The notes under the pieces were generated by a model. The model did not search any database and was not told the origin of the DNA. It saw only the letters and a list, made by a program, of their open reading frames with translations. A stretch of DNA of 64,000 bases from Lysobacterales bacterium 66-474 (GTDB lineage: Bacteria; Pseudomonadota; Gammaproteobacteria; Xanthomonadales; Rhodanobacteraceae), in NCBI GenBank assembly GCA_001899805.1, contig MKWP01000015.1, positions 1,018,048 to 1,082,047 on the forward strand. Reading direction: 5' to 3'. The position numbers were made by a program, and so were the translations under genes. Positions 11,361-61,309 of the stretch are shown here, piece after piece (position 1 is the first letter of the stretch; every line of letters starts with the position of its first letter).

Positions 11361-12185
<825 letters not shown>

Positions 12186-12469
12186 ATCAGATAATCACCT
12201 TCGAGGTTTCGCATCTGGCAATTCGCGAAATCGCAGACCGAAAACGTTGCGCAACCAATGTCCTTGTCGGTAGCGGATGTAGTCGGCGCGCTTGAAGCTG
12301 GCCACGATAGCAGTGTTGTCACCTTCGAGACGCCATGCGAACGGCTGATTACACCTGGCACCACCGCACGACGTAGGCCGAGACGCCAAACTGCGGACAA
12401 TCACCGAGCACACGCGAGACCGACCTTGTGGCCCGTTCAATCGACAGTTTCACAGCACTTTGGGCACCG

Positions 12470-12595
12470 CTTGCGACTAATCATCCATCAATGTTTCGAC
12501 ATCGCCCAAGCCCAAGCCAATTCGAACAAGGTTGACTGGCACCCGCAACTCATCCACGTGCCCTTGATCAGTAATGCTGGCCCACATTGCAAACG
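12470..12595 (-). pseudogene. possible C-terminal remnant of a Cys/Met-metabolism PLP enzyme
   Basis: Minus-strand reading ...ASITDQGHVDELRVPVNLVRIGLGLGDVETLMDD* resembles the family C-terminus (..LVRLSVGLED..DLI.DL). Confidence 0.35.
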
Positions 12596-12794
12596 GCCGC
12601 GTCACCATCGGACCGGACTAGCCAAAGTTTGCGTTGTACCGCACGCTGCCAAGATGCGCGAGAAAATCGTCAGCCGCACGATCTCCCACACCGACATCGC
12701 ATCGCGGAAATGCATCCACCGATCTTACCGACCATGAACATAGTGATCTCATCAAATGCCCCGCCGCCAAACGCACGGGTTAGGTTGAACACCC

Positions 12795-12853
12795 GGGTCA
12801 ATTTTGGATCGGTACAACCCTCAAAATGGGCCAATTTTCAATCGATGGCAACA
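12795..12853 (-). mobile_element. IS21-family-like terminal sequence, relic
   Basis: Minus strand TGTTGCCATCGATTGAAAATTGGCCCATTTTGAGGGTTGTACCGATCCAAAATTGACCC: TGTT end plus repeated AAAATTGRCCC boxes; no transposase ORF. Confidence 0.55.
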
Positions 12854-12887
12854 TTGCGGCCCTACCAGGTACGTTTGCAGAATGGCG

Positions 12888-13781
12888 TCATGCCTGCAAC
12901 TGTTCGTTGCTCCGCACCCGTTCCAGCAACCTGACCACACCTTCGGCAATGGCCTGCGGATGGTCCTCCTGGAGGTAATGCGCGCCATCTCCCAGTTCCA
13001 CGAATTCGCAGTTGGTCAACGCGGCAGCAAAGGTCCGCCCGAAGGCTGGCGAAACCAGCGCACCTGGGTTGCCCGCGAAGAGCACCTTGGGGTACATGGA
13101 CTTTCCGAGGGCCGTGTGAGCGCGAGTCAGCGTTTCGTGCACGACCCACGGAGTTCCCTCAATCGGAAGCTCGTTGGGGAAGCGGAATATCGGAACCCGC
13201 GAACGTTCATCCGGGAACGGCTTGCGATAGACGGCCATCTCCTCGTCGCTGAGCTTCCTGCTGATGGATCCGGGCAGTATCCTTTCGACAAACGCGTTCT
13301 CACGCAAGATCAACTGTTCGCCGACACCCGGTGTCCTGAACTTCCGGAAAATTTCCCGCGCCTGCGGCGTTTGGTGGAACTCGTCCCACGATTTCATCGG
13401 ACGAATGAACTCCATAAACGCCAATCCGCGCACGAAACCGGGCCGCCTCTCGGCTAGTTCGAACGCGAGCGCAGTACCCCAGTCCTGCGCGACGACACAC
13501 GCTTCGTCGATCCCGAGTTCAACGAGGAACCGATCCAGCCAAGCCACATGATCCGCGAACGTATACGGAAGGTCTGGTTTGCCCGACTGGCCGAATCCGA
13601 TCAGGTCAGGCGCGACGCAAAACGCCACGTCGGACACAATGGGCATGATGTTGCGCCAAATGTACGACGACGTCGGATTACCGTGCAGGAACAGCACGGG
13701 GTATTTGCCTCGTTCGCCTATCGATCGATAGGCCATGGTCGAGTGGTAGATCTTGATCACGGGAAGCTGGATGTCAGGCAT
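12888..13781 (-). CDS. haloalkane dehalogenase
   Basis: LHGNPTSSYIWRNIMP, LIGFGQSGKPDLPYTFADHVAWLD, VAQDWGTALAFELAERRPGFVRGLAFMEFIRP, GALVSPAFGR, HYLQEDHPQAI. Confidence 0.88.
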   Translation of the reverse strand: MPDIQLPVIKIYHSTMAYRSIGERGKYPVLFLHGNPTSSYIWRNIMPIVSDVAFCVAPDLIGFGQSGKPDLPYTFADHVAWLDRFLVELGIDEACVVAQDWGTALAFELAERRPGFVRGLAFMEFIRPMKSWDEFHQTPQAREIFRKFRTPGVGEQLILRENAFVERILPGSISRKLSDEEMAVYRKPFPDERSRVPIFRFPNELPIEGTPWVVHETLTRAHTALGKSMYPKVLFAGNPGALVSPAFGRTFAAALTNCEFVELGDGAHYLQEDHPQAIAEGVVRLLERVRSNEQLQA

Positions 13782-13873
13782 ATGCAATCTCGCTGTGTAA
13801 AATGATTGTGAGAGAAGCTTGTGGAATCGGTCCAATGCGTTGTCGACGATTTTCATGTGACGAGATAGCCGAC

Positions 13874-14440
13874 CTAGTTGCCCCCCGGTTTCCGCGGGGG
13901 CATCCCCACCCGCGTCGCGAACATCTCCTGGTCGAGGCGCCAACTCTTGCCGCCGTCGGCAGAATTGACCGCTCGCCAGTAAAACGAATCGGGCTTGATG
14001 CGGCCGAATATCCAACGGGTGGCTTCGCCGTTTTCTGATCGTTCCAGGACGATCTCGTCGCCGACAGCCTTGGCGATGAACGGAAGGACGTATCCATTGA
14101 CTGGGCCATGCCAAGTCGAGCGCCACGCTCCGAGCCTCGGATCGTAGAATCGCAAGGTCACGCCGAATTCGCCGGCGGGCTTTGGGCCCGTTATGCGTTG
14201 TGACCTCGGCGGAACCATCCAGACGTCCTCGATCGCTCGTCCTTCGAGCGCCCAACCAAAATGCCACTCACCCGGCGTTCGCCATCGCACGCTTCCATCA
14301 TGGTTGTAATAGATGACATCCAGCGACCAGCTGCCGACGAACTGGCCAAACAGCATGAGGTCGCTCTCGTGCGATTGGGCTGGCCCCGAAGCATGCAGGG
14401 CATCCAACATCGCATGGCTGGCGTCTTTAACCGGTTTCAT
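13874..14440 (-). CDS. stand-alone DUF1579/SnoaL-like beta-barrel domain protein, paralogue of the arginase-fusion C-terminus
   Basis: GSWSLDVIYYNHDGSVRWRTPGEWHFGWALEGRAIEDVWMVPPRSQR... collinear with 14629..16233 C-terminal third. Confidence 0.65.
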   Translation of the reverse strand: MKPVKDASHAMLDALHASGPAQSHESDLMLFGQFVGSWSLDVIYYNHDGSVRWRTPGEWHFGWALEGRAIEDVWMVPPRSQRITGPKPAGEFGVTLRFYDPRLGAWRSTWHGPVNGYVLPFIAKAVGDEIVLERSENGEATRWIFGRIKPDSFYWRAVNSADGGKSWRLDQEMFATRVGMPPRKPGGN

Positions 14441-14628
14441 GTGACTACCTCGAACAGATTGAGTGGTTGGCAGGGTGACGTCGCAAGCCTTGGTATCGAT
14501 GCACAGCCAGGGCCACCTGACCGGGCGTGCGGTTGCCATCTCTTCCGCCATCCATGAATCGACCGTACCCAGCCTGCATGCGCCCATCACCCTGCCTAGG
14601 CGAGTGACAACAACGGCACCATCAACGC

Positions 14629-16233
14629 TCAAGTTGCTCCGACTGGCTGACGCTTTGCCCACATGACCTGTTGCAAACGCCAGGTCTTCCCTCCGTCCGA
14701 AGAAACCTCGGACCGCCATTTGAAGGTGTCTGCTCGCATGTCGTAGAACACCCAATGCGAGAGCTTGCCATCCTCGTCGATGCGCTCAAGGACGATCTCG
14801 TCGTCGATGCGGCGCCCGATGAACGACCAGACGATCCCGTTCACCACCCCGTGCCATACCGAACGCCATGCATGGATGTGTGGATCGTAGAAACGAAGTG
14901 TTGCGCCATATTCGCCGGGTGGCGGATCGATGGTTTTCCGATCGGCGCGGGGCGGCACCACCCACACATCTGCGATTGCGCGGCCTTCAAGCACGCGCGC
15001 GAAATGCCATTCGCCGGGAATCCGCTTCTTGATGCTCCCGTCCGGATTGTAGAAAACGACATCCAGATTCCAACTGCCGAGCAAAGGGGCAAAGATGTCG
15101 TTGTCCCCTGCCACCTTTGGGGCCGGCTCACGCGCAAGCAGAGCATCGGCGAAAATGGCTTCGTTCCGCGGAATGTGCACCATTGCGTCCTCGGTCGCCG
15201 CGAATCCACGGACACGGCCGCTCAAGACAAATGCCCGTTCTATAACATTGGCAAGTTGCCGAGCGAGGCGTCCATTGGGATCAAGGCTCGGATCGAAGAT
15301 CGTGAGCTCCATCCCTACTGCCTTGGGGCTGGCCAGCAGTTCCGCGAGAATGACTTGCAACTGATCAAGGCTCATTCCGCGCGGATTGGGTGAATCCACG
15401 GCGGGCATGACGGTTGCATCCAGCACATCCGCATCCAGATGAATCCAGAACCCATCCGTTCCGGCCGACTCGAGCCTATGTCGGGCTTTGCGCGCAATCT
15501 CGTGGACGCCATGGCGCCTTATCGCATCAATGTCGAAGACCGATGCACCCGAGTGATCAAATTGCTCGATCGCGAAAAACTCGCCGTCCTTCGCGGTCCG
15601 GGAGAGGCCAATCTGGACGACATCATCGATACGGAAATATGGCTTTCGGCCAGCAATGTCGACCAATTGTTCCGGACCGAATCCCGTGGCGAGGCCAAGG
15701 TCTCGGCCCGCAGCCGTGAGGCGACCGTGATACCCGAATGACTCGCGAGGAGGCGAGAAGTCGTCGTGTGCATCGATGAACACCAGGCCGTAACGTCCTT
15801 TTTCGCGAAGAGCAAGTCCGGTTCCGAGCAACACACTGCAATCGCCACCGAGCACAACAACGAATCGTTTGGAGCTGAGGATTGGAGACAAACGGGTAGC
15901 CAGCCCCCGGCTGTACTTCGCGATTGCAAGGCCATTTCTGAAGCCCGTTGTCGGCTCGTCAACGAACGAATAGGCAGGCGGAAGCACCCTTCCCATGTCC
16001 TGAACGCGTAGCCGTTCCGGTAATCCAGTCGCCCGGATCGCCTCGGGCAGCCGATTGACGCCTGGTTCCACGCCCGGCTGAGGTGGGCGCAGACCAAGAT
16101 TTGAGGGTGCGTCCAGCAACCTAATGTCACCGGATACCTTCGCTCTGACGCTTGAAGGTGTTGCGGAGGTCGCATGCACCGCTCCCACCGCCAGTAGCAA
16201 CCAAACTGGAATGCTCGTCCGCCAAGCGATCAT
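14629..16233 (-). CDS. secreted arginase/ureohydrolase-like domain fused to a C-terminal DUF1579-like domain
   Basis: Signal-like N-terminus MIAWRTSIPVWLLLAVGAVHATSA; VVLGGDCSVLLG, VFIDAHDDF, IHLDADVLDATVMPAVDSP; then GSWNLDVVFYNPDGSIKKRIPGEWHFARVLEGRAIADVWVVPP. Confidence 0.8.
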   Translation of the reverse strand: MIAWRTSIPVWLLLAVGAVHATSATPSSVRAKVSGDIRLLDAPSNLGLRPPQPGVEPGVNRLPEAIRATGLPERLRVQDMGRVLPPAYSFVDEPTTGFRNGLAIAKYSRGLATRLSPILSSKRFVVVLGGDCSVLLGTGLALREKGRYGLVFIDAHDDFSPPRESFGYHGRLTAAGRDLGLATGFGPEQLVDIAGRKPYFRIDDVVQIGLSRTAKDGEFFAIEQFDHSGASVFDIDAIRRHGVHEIARKARHRLESAGTDGFWIHLDADVLDATVMPAVDSPNPRGMSLDQLQVILAELLASPKAVGMELTIFDPSLDPNGRLARQLANVIERAFVLSGRVRGFAATEDAMVHIPRNEAIFADALLAREPAPKVAGDNDIFAPLLGSWNLDVVFYNPDGSIKKRIPGEWHFARVLEGRAIADVWVVPPRADRKTIDPPPGEYGATLRFYDPHIHAWRSVWHGVVNGIVWSFIGRRIDDEIVLERIDEDGKLSHWVFYDMRADTFKWRSEVSSDGGKTWRLQQVMWAKRQPVGAT

Positions 16234-16315
16234 AGGCTAACTTGTAAAATACGTTTATTAAGTTAGACAGTAATGTATCTTGCCTAACCTGTCAATACAT
16301 GTTAAAAGGTTATGC

Positions 16316-16936
16316 ATGGTCATCGAGAAGCACACTTTCCGAAGCCGAGACATCGTTGCCGGCAACCTCGCGCTTGACTTCGTCAACACCGTGACTGGTC
16401 GCAACGCAACGCCTCGAGACTGGCTGGACGGATACAGCGCACTGCTCGAGTGGGCAAGGCTCTGTGGCTGTTGTTCCCGGGGCGATCTTGCAACGCTAGA
16501 CCGCATGGCGACTGCAGGACCGGCGCGTGCAAAGGAAGCGTTGGTCAATGCCAAGCGACTGCGGGAAGCGTTGTGCTCCGCGGCCTATGCGTTCGTGCAC
16601 GGTGAAAGCGCAGATCCCATGAGCCGTGCAACGATTGAACGCTTTCACCGGTCAGCAGCGCAGGCGGCACACTTAGAGTGGCACGCTCACCTATGTCGCA
16701 TCGTTTGGACCGCGGAGCATTCGGGCCTGGACTTGATTTCGCATGTCATCACCGTGCAGGCCGTGCGCCTGTTCGGTGACGTCGACGTCGACAGATTGCG
16801 GGTTTGCGCGGGTGACAATTGCGGGTGGGTATTCCTCGACACCTCACGCGGTGGTCGCCGACGCTGGTGCGATATGGCGACGTGTGGCAATGTCGCGAAA
16901 GCCCGCCGTCACTACAGTCGGATACACTCAGACTGA
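16316..16936 (+). CDS. CGNR zinc-finger (ABATE-domain) transcriptional regulator
   Basis: AGNLALDFVNTVTGR...; C-terminal LRVCAGDNCGWVFLDTSRGGRRRWCDMATCGNVAKARRHYSR. Confidence 0.88.
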   Translation: MVIEKHTFRSRDIVAGNLALDFVNTVTGRNATPRDWLDGYSALLEWARLCGCCSRGDLATLDRMATAGPARAKEALVNAKRLREALCSAAYAFVHGESADPMSRATIERFHRSAAQAAHLEWHAHLCRIVWTAEHSGLDLISHVITVQAVRLFGDVDVDRLRVCAGDNCGWVFLDTSRGGRRRWCDMATCGNVAKARRHYSRIHSD

Positions 16937-17099
16937 CAACCCGCTGTAACCAGACGCCAGAACCAGGACCATGCTTCACGCGTGCTCGCAAGCAGATCGC
17001 GTGACGTTTCGGTCGCGTGTATGAATTTACACTCTGGGAACGCTGTCGCGTGTGTCCAAGTAAATCGGTATCGGCTACCCAAGCGCGCAAGATGGTCCA

Positions 17100-56729: not shown

Positions 56730-58115
56730 ATGACGCTCCCGAACGCTGTCGAGACGCAGCAGGGTTTTGACGAGGACGCCTGGGACGACCTCCTCAACTA
56801 CATCGAGGAGCACCGGGTCATTCCGATCATCGGCCCCGACCTGCTGCGCGTGCAGACCGACAGTGGCCTGCGCCCGCTGTACGTCTGGCTCGCGGAAAAG
56901 CTGGCGGCGCGTTTGTCGGTCGACACGGCCGAACTGCCACAACCGCTCACGCTCAACGACGTGATGTGCGCCTGGCTCGGCCAGCGCGGGCGCCGCGAGG
57001 AAGCCTACACGCGGCTGCGCTCGATCATGCGCGAAGTGCAATTCGAGCCGCCCATGCCGTTGCGGCAACTGGCGCAGATCACCGACTTCGACCTGTTCGT
57101 CACCACCACCTTCGATCCACTGCTGGAAAACGCGATCAACCTGGAACGCTACGGCGGCCAGCCCTCGGCCGAGGTGATCGCCTACTCGCCCAACCGCGTC
57201 GCCGACCTGCCGGCCGAACGTGCGGACCTGCGCCGCAGCGTGGTCTATCACCTGCTGGGAAGGTTGTCGGCGTCGCCGACCTACGTGCTGTCCGACGAGG
57301 ACATGCTGGAGTTCATCTGCGCGCTGCAATCCGAACACCTGACGCCGGAAAAACTCTTCCACGAACTCGAACACAATCATCTGTTGCTGATCGGCAGCGA
57401 TTTTTCGAACTGGCTGGCGCGGTTGTTTCTGCGCATGGCCAAGCGCAAGCGGCTGTCCGATCCGCGTGACGTCACCGAGGTGTTCGCCGACGACCACACC
57501 GCCAAGGACGAACGCCTGGTCGCGTTCCTGCAACAGGTCAGCGTGCGCACGCGCGTGTACGGCGGCGCGGAATCCTTCGTCGCCGAACTGCACCAGCGCT
57601 GGACCGCCCGCCAGAAACCCGCGCAAACAGCTTCCGCTCCCGGCGCGCCGCAACGCTTCCTGCCGCCCGCGCGCGAAATGCCGGAAAACGCGATCTTCAT
57701 CAGCTACGCGCGCGAAGACCTGCCCGCGGTGCAGCGTTTGAAGGCAGGCATGGACGCGGCCGGACTCACAACCTGGTTCGACCTCGACCGGTTGGAAAGC
57801 GGCGACGACTACGACCGCAAGATCCACGCCAACATCGGGCGTTGCAGTTTCTTCGTGCCGGTGATTTCGGCGACGACGCAGCGCCGTCACGAAGCCTACT
57901 TCCGCCGCGAGTGGAGCTACGCCGTCGATCGCATGCGCAACATGGCCGGCGGCGCGGTGTTCATCCTGCCGGTCTGCATCGACGACACCCCGGAAGCCGC
58001 GGCGCTGGTGCCGGAGCAATTCAAGGCCGTGCACATGACGCGCCTGCCGGGCGGCGAAGCCACGCCCGAATTCCTGCGCCGGCTGCAGGAACTGTGCAGC
58101 GGGAGAAACGCATGA
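56730..58115 (+). CDS. SIR2-like N-terminal domain + C-terminal TIR domain protein
   Basis: HRVIPIIGPDLL...TDFDLFVTTTFDPLLENAIN...LLLIGSDFSNWLARLF; TIR AIFISYAREDLPAVQRLKAGMDAAGLTTWFDLDRLESGDDYDRKIHANIGRCSFFVPVIS. Confidence 0.85.
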   Translation: MTLPNAVETQQGFDEDAWDDLLNYIEEHRVIPIIGPDLLRVQTDSGLRPLYVWLAEKLAARLSVDTAELPQPLTLNDVMCAWLGQRGRREEAYTRLRSIMREVQFEPPMPLRQLAQITDFDLFVTTTFDPLLENAINLERYGGQPSAEVIAYSPNRVADLPAERADLRRSVVYHLLGRLSASPTYVLSDEDMLEFICALQSEHLTPEKLFHELEHNHLLLIGSDFSNWLARLFLRMAKRKRLSDPRDVTEVFADDHTAKDERLVAFLQQVSVRTRVYGGAESFVAELHQRWTARQKPAQTASAPGAPQRFLPPAREMPENAIFISYAREDLPAVQRLKAGMDAAGLTTWFDLDRLESGDDYDRKIHANIGRCSFFVPVISATTQRRHEAYFRREWSYAVDRMRNMAGGAVFILPVCIDDTPEAAALVPEQFKAVHMTRLPGGEATPEFLRRLQELCSGRNA

Positions 58116-61100
58116 ACGACCATGCCCCCGCCAGCGATCACGTCGTCACGCTCGATCCGGAAAACCCCTGGCTCGGGCTGGATTCCTATACCGAGGCGAC
58201 CCGCGCGTACTTCCACGGCCGCGACGAGGAAACCGCCGAACTGGCGCGCCACGTGCAGCGCAAGACCCTTGCGGTCCTGTTCGGCCAATCCGGCCTCGGC
58301 AAGACTTCATTGCTGCGCGCGGGCCTGGTGCCGCGCCTGCGCAAGGAAGGTTACTGCCCCGTCTATGTCCGCATCGACTACGCGGCCGGATCGCCCGCGC
58401 CTTCCGAGCAGATCAAACAGGCGATCTTCCGCGCGACCGAAGCGGCCGGACACTGGACGCGGCCCGGTACCGCGATCGAGGGCGAATCGCTGTGGGAGTT
58501 CCTGCACCACCGCGGGGATCTTCTTCGCGACGCCGACGGCCACGCGTTGATTCCGCTGCTGATCTTCGACCAGTTCGAGGAAATCTTCACGCTGGGCCAG
58601 GCCGACGACGCCGGCAAGCTGCACGCCAAACACTTCCTCGACGATCTCTCCGACCTGATCGAGAACCGCGCACCCGCGGCGCTGGAAGCGCGACTCGAAC
58701 ACGACGACAGCGCGATCGAGGATTTCGATTTCGCGCGCGCCGATTACCGCGTGCTGATCGCGCTGCGCGAGGATTACCTCGCACACCTGGAAGGCATCAA
58801 GGATACGATGCCTTCGATCACCCAGAACCGCATGCGCCTCGCGCGCATGGACGGCACGCAGGCGCTGAGTGCGGTGCTGAAACCCGGCGGCAAGCTGGTC
58901 ACCCGGGAAGTCGCCGAGGCCATCGTGCGCTTCGTCGCCGGCGGTTCGGAACTCGCGAACGCCGAGATCGAGCCATCGCTGCTCAGCCTGGTCTGCCGCG
59001 AACTCAACACCATCCGCCAGAACCAGCACCGCAAGGAAATCTCGACCGACCTGCTGGCCGGCTCGCGCGACACCATCCTCTCCGAATTCTACGAACGCAC
59101 GCTGGCCGACCAGCCCGCGGGCGTCAGGCGCGTGATCGAAGACGATCTCCTCACCGAATCCGGTTACCGCGAAAGCCTTGCCGAAGAACGCGTCAGGAAA
59201 GCCCTGGACGCGGCGGGCGCGGCGCCGGATACGCTGGCGACGCTGGTCAACCGGCGCCTGTTGCGGATCGAGGAACGCCTCGACATGCGCCGCGTGGAAC
59301 TGACCCACGACGTGCTGTGCAAGGTGGTGCTGGCCAGCCGCAACCTGCGCCGCGAGCGCGAGGCGCGCGAGGTCGCCGAACGCCAACTTGCCGAGCAGCG
59401 CGAGCGCGAAGCCGCCATCCATCGGACATTGCGGCGCACCCGCATGGTCGCCGGCGTATGCATCGTGCTGCTGCTGGTCGCGATCGCCGGCGCGCTGTTC
59501 GGCTGGTACAGCATGCACCGGGCACGCGCGGCCGAAGCGCAGGCCCAAGCTTCGCGCGCCAACGCGGAAAAACTGGTGAGCTTCCTGATCGAGGATTTCT
59601 ACAACGAGCTGGCGCCGACTGGGCGGCTGGAAACCCTGGGTACGCTCGCGCAAAAAACCGTGTCCTACTACGACAGCCTGCCTCCGGAACTGGTGACACG
59701 GCAGACCCAGATCAATCGCGCGATGGCGCTGGTGCGGCTGGGTTCGGCCCAGGATGCCAGCGGCTCCCCCACTGCGGCCAGAAACTTCGGCGAAGCCGAA
59801 GCGATATTCAAGAAGCTGCACGCGGCTGGAGACCACAGCGAACCCGTGATCTATGGCCTCGCCTCCATCCTGTACAGCGCCAATTACGGACCTGCCGTGG
59901 GCGGCGGGAGTTCTGCCGCGATGGACCAGGCCGCGTCCCTGCTGCGACCGCTCGTCGACAGCCCGAACCCCTCGCGCCGGGTACGCCAGCTTTACGCCGA
60001 CACCCTGAACATCGTTTGCTTGAACCAACGGCCGCAGCAAGGCCTGGCAACCTGCGACGAAGCGCTCAAGACGCTTGCGGGTCTCGGCGCACTCAACCTG
60101 TCGGACCTGAATGCCGCGGCGTCCTGGGCCGATACCGCCGACACCAAGTCGGGGGAGCTGCAGGCACTCGGCCGCGTCGAAGAGGCACAAGCGCTGGAGC
60201 AGCAGGTGTTCGCAATGACCGAGAAGGTTCTTGCCCACCGTCCCGGCGACTTGCATTCGCTGGAGGACCGCTTCTTTGCCGTGAAGCGGCTCGGCGATCT
60301 TGCTGCCAGCCGGCATGATTCCGCGGCAGCGGCGAAGTATGCGGACGAGACCGTGCAGGCCGCCGAGGATTGGATGCGTTTCAATCCTTCCAGCCTCGAT
60401 GCCTGGACCCGGCGGGCGCAGGCGCTGGCCCAGGTTGCGGGGTTCCAATATGAACGCGGCCAGGTATCCGATGCCATCGCCACCGCGCGCAAGGCGCTGG
60501 CGTTGGCGCAAGATCCACGTAGCCCCAAAGGCCTCGCCGCCACGACCTGGTACATTCGGTTCAATCTGGCGGGGGCTCTCGCGATGAGCGGCGAGGCGGC
60601 CGCGGAACAGTCGGCGCAGACCGCCGTGCGAGATCTGCAAGCGCTGGTCGCGGATCGGCCACCCGATTCTCCACAGCGTCGGCTCGCGGCGACAAACCTG
60701 CCGCTCGCAGTCGCGGATATCAAACTGGCCGAGGGTGCGCTGCAACCCGCGTTGGTCGAAGCCACCGCGGCGCGTGCCAGGATCGAACCGATCGAGGTGC
60801 CGGCGACGGACGCCGGTGCCACCCGCTGGAAGAACCAGAATCTGGCAGACAGCTTCAGCATTGGTGCACAGGCAGCGGTACAACTCGGGCACTACGCACA
60901 GGCGGAAACCCTGGCGCGCCAGTGGCTGGCGCTCGCCCCGGATTCGGTAGGCACGCAAGCCAGCCCGAAACCGCTCGAATCACGCGCCCGATTCGTCCTT
61001 GCCCAGGCCATCGCGATGCAGGGCCGGCGCGACGAGGCCATCAAGACGCTGCAACCCGCGCTGGCCTATTACGCCGGGGAACAGAAAGCCGGTGCGCAAG

Positions 61101-61309
61101 GTACCACCTTCCGCCACGACTATGCCTACGCGCTGTATGTCGATTCCCTGGCCGTGCCCGCCGGCACCGCCGGTGCAAAGCAACGCAAGGACGACCTCGA
61201 TGCAGCCACCAAGCTGATCGCCGGCGCCTCGGTCGAAACACAGCGACTGTCCCCGTTCCGTTACCTCTCCGGCCTGATCGCCACGGCCCGCGCAAAACCG
61301 AATGGCTGA
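58112..61309 (+). CDS. nSTAND1-type STAND NTPase with a transmembrane segment and C-terminal TPR-like repeats
   Basis: PWLGLDSYTEATRAYFHGRDEE, Walker A FGQSGLGKTSLLRAG, PLLIFDQFEEIFTLG; TM VAGVCIVLLLVAIAGALFGWY (~59446-59508); ATGA overlap with SIR2-TIR gene. Confidence 0.9.
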   Translation: MNDHAPASDHVVTLDPENPWLGLDSYTEATRAYFHGRDEETAELARHVQRKTLAVLFGQSGLGKTSLLRAGLVPRLRKEGYCPVYVRIDYAAGSPAPSEQIKQAIFRATEAAGHWTRPGTAIEGESLWEFLHHRGDLLRDADGHALIPLLIFDQFEEIFTLGQADDAGKLHAKHFLDDLSDLIENRAPAALEARLEHDDSAIEDFDFARADYRVLIALREDYLAHLEGIKDTMPSITQNRMRLARMDGTQALSAVLKPGGKLVTREVAEAIVRFVAGGSELANAEIEPSLLSLVCRELNTIRQNQHRKEISTDLLAGSRDTILSEFYERTLADQPAGVRRVIEDDLLTESGYRESLAEERVRKALDAAGAAPDTLATLVNRRLLRIEERLDMRRVELTHDVLCKVVLASRNLRREREAREVAERQLAEQREREAAIHRTLRRTRMVAGVCIVLLLVAIAGALFGWYSMHRARAAEAQAQASRANAEKLVSFLIEDFYNELAPTGRLETLGTLAQKTVSYYDSLPPELVTRQTQINRAMALVRLGSAQDASGSPTAARNFGEAEAIFKKLHAAGDHSEPVIYGLASILYSANYGPAVGGGSSAAMDQAASLLRPLVDSPNPSRRVRQLYADTLNIVCLNQRPQQGLATCDEALKTLAGLGALNLSDLNAAASWADTADTKSGELQALGRVEEAQALEQQVFAMTEKVLAHRPGDLHSLEDRFFAVKRLGDLAASRHDSAAAAKYADETVQAAEDWMRFNPSSLDAWTRRAQALAQVAGFQYERGQVSDAIATARKALALAQDPRSPKGLAATTWYIRFNLAGALAMSGEAAAEQSAQTAVRDLQALVADRPPDSPQRRLAATNLPLAVADIKLAEGALQPALVEATAARARIEPIEVPATDAGATRWKNQNLADSFSIGAQAAVQLGHYAQAETLARQWLALAPDSVGTQASPKPLESRARFVLAQAIAMQGRRDEAIKTLQPALAYYAGEQKAGAQGTTFRHDYAYALYVDSLAVPAGTAGAKQRKDDLDAATKLIAGASVETQRLSPFRYLSGLIATARAKPNG

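Follow-up and report, generated by a model that had tools for sequence, protein, structure and literature searches.

Organization of the locus

The stretch of DNA analyzed here (64,000 nucleotides; hereafter, the window) carries two genes on the forward strand, with uvrB upstream and a gene for a fimT/GspH-type pseudopilin downstream (Table 1). The two open reading frames overlap by an ATGA stop/start junction, such that the putative effector is encoded as a protein of its own, apart from the STAND protein; in these respects, as well as in the identity of the flanking genes, the locus is organized as the preliminary description had stated. Searches of related genomes and GTDB contigs recovered approximately 44 loci containing both genes, and the ATGA junction is kept at 38 of the 44. 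The association of gene 1 with gene 2 persists down to approximately 30% identity and extends to other families. Because the pair is conserved at approximately 44 loci with 38 identical junctions, the pairing is, by sequence comparison, far above chance, and the two genes are best described as one unit.

Table 1. Features of the two-gene module (coordinates refer to the window)
Feature	Coordinates	Strand	Basis
Gene 1, SIR2-like putative pseudo-enzyme domain and C-terminal TIR, 461 aa	56730..58115	+	Pfam, fold model
SIR2-fold domain, residues about 15-290; catalytic motifs lost	56772..57599	+	Pfam, model, conservation
TTTFD replacing sirtuin TTNxD (Asn to Thr)	57102..57116	+	ThsA alignment, homologue comparison
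LG replacing sirtuin HG (His to Leu)	57255..57260	+	ThsA alignment, homologue comparison
TIR_2 domain, residues 322-437	57693..58040	+	Pfam, profile alignment
TIR E394, invariant; aligns with WxxxE glutamate of AbTIR	57909..57911	+	Family profile, homologue comparison
ATGA stop/start overlap of genes 1 and 2	58112..58115	+	Junction comparison, 44 loci
Gene 2, nSTAND1-TM-TPR protein, 1065 aa	58112..61309	+	Pfam, structure model
nSTAND1 NTPase, residues 19-430	58166..59401	+	Pfam, conservation
Walker A GQSGLGKTS	58283..58309	+	25/25 invariant save one Leu to His
Walker B LLIFDQFEE	58556..58582	+	25/25 invariant save one Leu to Ile
Single transmembrane helix, residues 445-463	59444..59500	+	Hydropathy
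TPR-like solenoid, residues 500-1061, fast-evolving, probable sensor	59609..61294	+	Model, structural matches, conservation

SIR2-fold and TIR domains of the gene 1 protein

The N-terminal part of the gene 1 protein had been described as SIR2-like and, as far as the fold is concerned, this reading stands: Pfam SIR2_2 matches residues 122-255 (6e-12), and the closest PDB folds to the AlphaFold model (mean pLDDT 76) are ThsA, followed by Avs5, DSR2, and KomC. The initial reading overlooked, however, that the catalytic motifs are absent. According to work on Avs5 (PMC12931631), every known sirtuin has GAGxS and TTNxD, with HG (or NG) as the catalytic motif; in all 27 gene 1 homologues compared, these are replaced by GPxLL, TTTxD, and LG or FG, respectively, and in the alignment with ThsA the catalytic Asn corresponds to Thr and the His to Leu. 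An active-sirtuin identity was rejected on this ground, and a NADase role for the domain is not supported. Two copies of approximately 31% identity from another family of the class have likewise lost the sirtuin Asn and His and retain the TIR Glu. The SIR2-like domain is the better-conserved half of the protein (82% mean column identity), with conservation peaking at residues 201-250, as would be expected if it served in binding. It is highly improbable that the domain is an active NADase with nonstandard residues: some Avs5 proteins with NG in place of HG stay active, and the Asp of TTNxD is retained in 27/27 homologues, but 3 motifs are altered together throughout, and a single N110A mutation in Avs5 abolishes protection (PMC12931631).

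The C-terminal TIR domain was recovered as described (TIR_2, 3e-17), and a catalytic-type glutamate, for which a check had been proposed, is present. All 27 homologues compared have E394, W349, and D351, and in the family-profile alignment, with a two-residue gap, E394 coincides with the glutamate found in AbTIR-type NADases. The apparent loss of this glutamate came from a single-sequence alignment, arose because Trp was paired with Trp, and was discarded. With a TIR fold and this glutamate, the protein is a predicted enzyme. Around E394, the sequence (YFRREW) departs from the usual WxxxE and contains a two-residue insertion relative to solved TIR NADases, as might be the case if TIR, too, were a noncatalytic scaffold and the module acted via another partner; we consider this improbable, given the invariance of the 3 residues and the profile placement of E394. 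Because the sirtuin motifs are lost while the SIR2 domain is still conserved and E394 is invariant, we infer that the SIR2 domain is a catalytically dead pseudo-enzyme with a structural or binding role, and that TIR, rather than SIR2, is probably the enzyme.

Genes encoding TIR fused to TPR occur near some copies of the pair and elsewhere in the window's genome. Six TIR_2-TPR proteins of approximately 600 aa each, roughly 66-74% identical to one another, are encoded in tandem in the window's own genome, C4 (L084:311-11356), and tandem TIR-TPR genes lie just downstream of the pair at 2 homologous loci (L049:12585-17353 and L053:14208-17297); their TIR domains share 42-52% identity with the gene 1 TIR. 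At a further locus (L050:12644-14497), the pair is followed by a gene with TPR-S sensor and nucleotidyl cyclase domains, a possible signaling partner.

NTPase, membrane helix, and repeats of the gene 2 protein

The NTPase, the single transmembrane helix, and the TPR-like repeats reported for gene 2 were all confirmed. The protein belongs to nSTAND1 (PF20703; 4e-32, 112.7 bits versus a gathering threshold of 27.1), the assignment being based on the Pfam match and the conserved Walker motifs instead of the structural model, which is of low confidence in the NTPase part. Residues 500-1062 are modeled as an all-helical solenoid, mostly at pLDDT 80-97, with many TPR proteins among the structural matches. 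The hydrophobic segment at residues 445-463 has a mean Kyte-Doolittle value of 2.87 (next peak, 1.0), and exactly one such helix is present, at the same position, in all 25 homologues. It is flanked by 3-6 K/R residues on the N side and 1-5 on the C side, with an N-side excess in nearly all homologues. Hydropathy and this positive-inside bias, the sole basis for the orientation, would place the TPR solenoid on the periplasmic side. The NTPase shows 85% mean column identity and holds 188 of the 210 invariant residues, whereas identity in the TPR region is 53-65%, with 53% in the distal part, a pattern suggestive of an arms-race sensor.

The membrane-split STAND is not a unique layout: similar arrangements are found in a distant nSTAND1-TM-WD40 homologue and in a wHTH-nSTAND1-TM-TPR protein of relatives. 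More generally, relatives encode homologues of the TM-TPR half as the receptor part of TIR-TM-TPR, kinase-TM-TPR, and wHTH-nSTAND1-TM-TPR proteins, and the occurrence of this half with differing heads argues for a modular receptor. In distant pairs (approximately 30% identity), the STAND protein carries WD40 or WD40 and Sel1 repeats in place of TPR, which points to an exchange of sensors while the gene pair stays constant and which we count in favor of a function in conflict. Individual loci with the same TM-TPR half and another head include one with wHTH-nSTAND1 (L079) and three with a Ser/Thr kinase, which was assigned by Pfam in L073 and L080 and by similarity of sequence in L077; L082 is a further, putative member of the kinase-headed group.

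Distribution and genomic setting

Within the host genus, the module lies beside uvrB at this site in 6 genomes, and uvrB and fimT are directly adjacent in 9. With these clean empty sites, the module is an accessory insertion between uvrB and fimT, in agreement with the original proposal. Across the phylum, the pair was found in 3 of 399 genomes, a rare and patchy distribution, and a complete genome from another family of the class contains 2 copies. Relatives with 53-78% identity are present on contigs labeled Verrucomicrobiota and Rokubacteria, misbinning of metagenome-assembled genomes being possible for single contigs. In the tree of gene 1, most deep forks are unresolved, and the tree alone is no proof of transfer between phyla. 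Judged from these occurrences, the pair is rare and horizontally spread.

Outside this site, the pair is found beside varied and unrelated housekeeping genes. Among 70 neighbor genes, no enrichment in defense functions was detected, with singleton PADLOC matches, mostly of the helicase/primase type, and housekeeping Pfam families. The defense-island setting considered at the outset was accordingly rejected. A phage or plasmid origin was also rejected: no relative was found in phages or IMG/VR, and the only plasmid relative is distant (31% identity over the full length). Elsewhere in the window, positions 12001-17000 have a G+C content of 57-60%, versus about 65% in the rest, which suggests foreign DNA.

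The housekeeping neighborhood and the stable site within one genus, together with the sharing of the TM-TPR half among Pkinase, TIR, and wHTH-nSTAND1 heads, could be taken to mean that the pair serves envelope or stress signaling rather than immunity, TM-TPR being a generic receptor half that is here connected to a TIR output. The rarity and patchiness of the pair, its empty sites, its fast-evolving sensor, and the recurrent SLOG-SLATT partner described below speak against this view, and TIR combined with STAND is otherwise a signature of conflict (PMC9122126, PMC7159879); we regard envelope or stress signaling as unlikely.

A recurrent third gene encoding a predicted SLOG-SLATT protein

The pair had been presented as a two-gene system, which is correct for the pair itself and misses a recurrent partner. 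At 9 of 37 loci, the pair is adjoined by a gene whose product has a SLOG-like N-terminal region and two 2TM regions of the SLATT/DUF4231 type; approximately 0.02 such adjacencies would be expected by chance for 37 loci, at one SLOG-SLATT gene per ~3000-gene genome. The gene is located either directly downstream of the pair (4 loci: L030, L044, L046, and L062) or divergently and directly upstream (5 loci: L047, L048, L049, L051, and L055); the third gene of L055 was identified by a SLATT_1 match only, and that of L047 by the family profile and weak SLOG-family matches only. The SLOG assignment comes from weak Pfam matches in some members (DprA, 0.001; YspA-like, 0.0096; cpYpsA, 0.03), and a PDB profile search with the SLOG-SLATT family gave no match.

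The window has no cis copy of the gene, which is present in trans in the same genome, beside genes for TIR-TM-TPR proteins that share the sensor half of gene 2. There (L083:6927-15362, C4), two TIR_2/ThsB_TIR-TM-TPR genes, each succeeded by a short orphan ORF, precede the SLOG-SLATT gene, possibly as a Thoeris-like system in its own right, with a membrane protein as effector. SLOG-SLATT genes were found in 32 of 101 relatives, once per genome and often close to TIR-TM-TPR genes, and most loci without a cis copy have one in trans. At the genus level, co-occurrence with the pair makes no difference (6/7 genomes with the pair versus 7/9 without); the broader comparison (28/35 versus 26/92; Fisher p = 2e-7) is confounded by phylogeny and suggestive only.

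SLATT proteins are predicted membrane effectors regulated by ADPr derivatives and are neighbors of TIR genes (PMC9503650). In the 9 loci, as in those neighborhoods, a 2TM SLATT effector is encoded next to TIR; unlike in them, the third gene combines two 2TM regions with a SLOG-like domain and is associated with a STAND-TIR pair. We predict that SLOG-SLATT is a messenger-gated membrane pore. A STAND-gated TIR might instead halt the cell by NAD+ depletion alone, SLOG-SLATT being incidental or an additional effector: TIR-NLR, a one-chain TIR-STAND-TPR protein, protects by this proposed route (PMC9122126), and 28/37 loci have no adjacent third gene. Two distinct arrangements of the third gene are nevertheless hard to obtain by chance, and depletion as the whole of the output appears rather unlikely to us.

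Relationship to known systems

The best-characterized bacterial NLR-like proteins, Avs and TIR-NLR, combine switch and effector in one polypeptide. Here, the N-terminus of the STAND protein bears no effector, which is encoded by a separate, overlapping gene. As anticipated, no named system was matched: PADLOC and NCBIfam models gave no full-length match above cutoff, only partial ones, mostly to the TIR domain, and no paper using the phrases SIR2-TIR or TIR-SIR2 was found among the literature searched. TIR-NLR of P4-like satellites (PMC9122126) shares with the pair a TIR effector, a STAND NTPase, and C-terminal TPRs, but is a single chain, whereas here a separate TIR is fused to a putative pseudo-SIR2 and a transmembrane helix divides the NTPase of the STAND protein from its repeats. 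Avs5 (SIR2-STAND, AVAST type 5) likewise couples a SIR2 fold (PDB 9nc9 and 9jap are among the nearest structures) to STAND; its SIR2 is, however, fused to STAND and active, with GAGxS and TTNxD, whereas here it is encoded in trans, with the motifs lost and TIR as the likely enzyme.

Thoeris is similar in that ThsA is nearest to the SIR2 domain by both sequence and structure, in the presence of TIR, and in the SLOG-like partner at some loci. In Thoeris, the active SIR2-SLOG effector is ThsA, and TIR stands alone as ThsB; the present family instead has an apparently dead SIR2 fused to TIR, the SLOG-like domain resides on a 2TM protein, and STAND is always present. The PADLOC match to ThsB is partial (E = 0.011), and no SLOG was found in gene 1. 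Finally, nSTAND1 conflict proteins with effector-associated domains (EADs; PMC7159879, PMC10907252) resemble the pair in placing a STAND sensor gene beside an effector gene. No EAD family was present among the Pfam matches of the 2 proteins, and no EAD-type adaptor or peptidase effector was detected, such that coupling would have to run via the SIR2-like or TIR domain. TIR-NLR, Avs5, and Thoeris each differ in at least 1 defining feature. We class the pair as a variant of the STAND/TIR conflict theme and as a member of no named system.

Proposed mechanism and implications

In STAND proteins, binding leads to nucleotide exchange in the NTPase and to oligomerization. By analogy, gene 2 would encode an inner-membrane switch, the periplasmic TPR solenoid of which senses an envelope-side or infection-induced cue, with cue binding followed by nucleotide exchange and oligomerization of the cytosolic nSTAND1. 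The oligomer could recruit the gene 1 protein, the dead SIR2 domain serving as a docking or assembly module and not as an NADase, and recruitment would cluster the TIR domains into an active form. Active TIR would cleave NAD+ and thereby either deplete it or yield an ADP-ribose-type messenger; where SLOG-SLATT is present, the messenger may open its 2TM pore.

The steps of this scheme merit different degrees of confidence. That the pair is a two-gene NLR-like conflict module, in which a membrane STAND gates a TIR in trans, we hold to be an evenly balanced proposition. In its favor, E394 and the Walker A and B motifs are retained while all 3 sirtuin motifs are lost, the distribution is patchy with clean empty sites and relatives on contigs of other phyla, and SLOG-SLATT genes are adjacent at some loci; against it stand the lack of a defense-island context and of phage or IMG/VR relatives, the weak SLOG matches, and the similar frequency of SLOG-SLATT with and without the pair at the genus level. 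The step from a TIR product to SLOG-SLATT is tentative and on the doubtful side. More speculative still is the complete transmembrane NLR relay, in which an envelope-reading TPR-STAND, a cytosolic TIR on a pseudo-SIR2 scaffold, and a SLATT pore opened through SLOG by a nucleotide product would constitute three-part immunity of receptor, enzyme, and channel. An immune or alarm role, in the broader sense, is probable from the sequence features.

A family with a membrane-separated receptor, an effector supplied in trans, and a putatively noncatalytic sirtuin part would provide a test of STAND signaling across a membrane and of TIR recruitment, and the recurring SLOG-SLATT partner offers a concrete, testable candidate for the messenger receptor.
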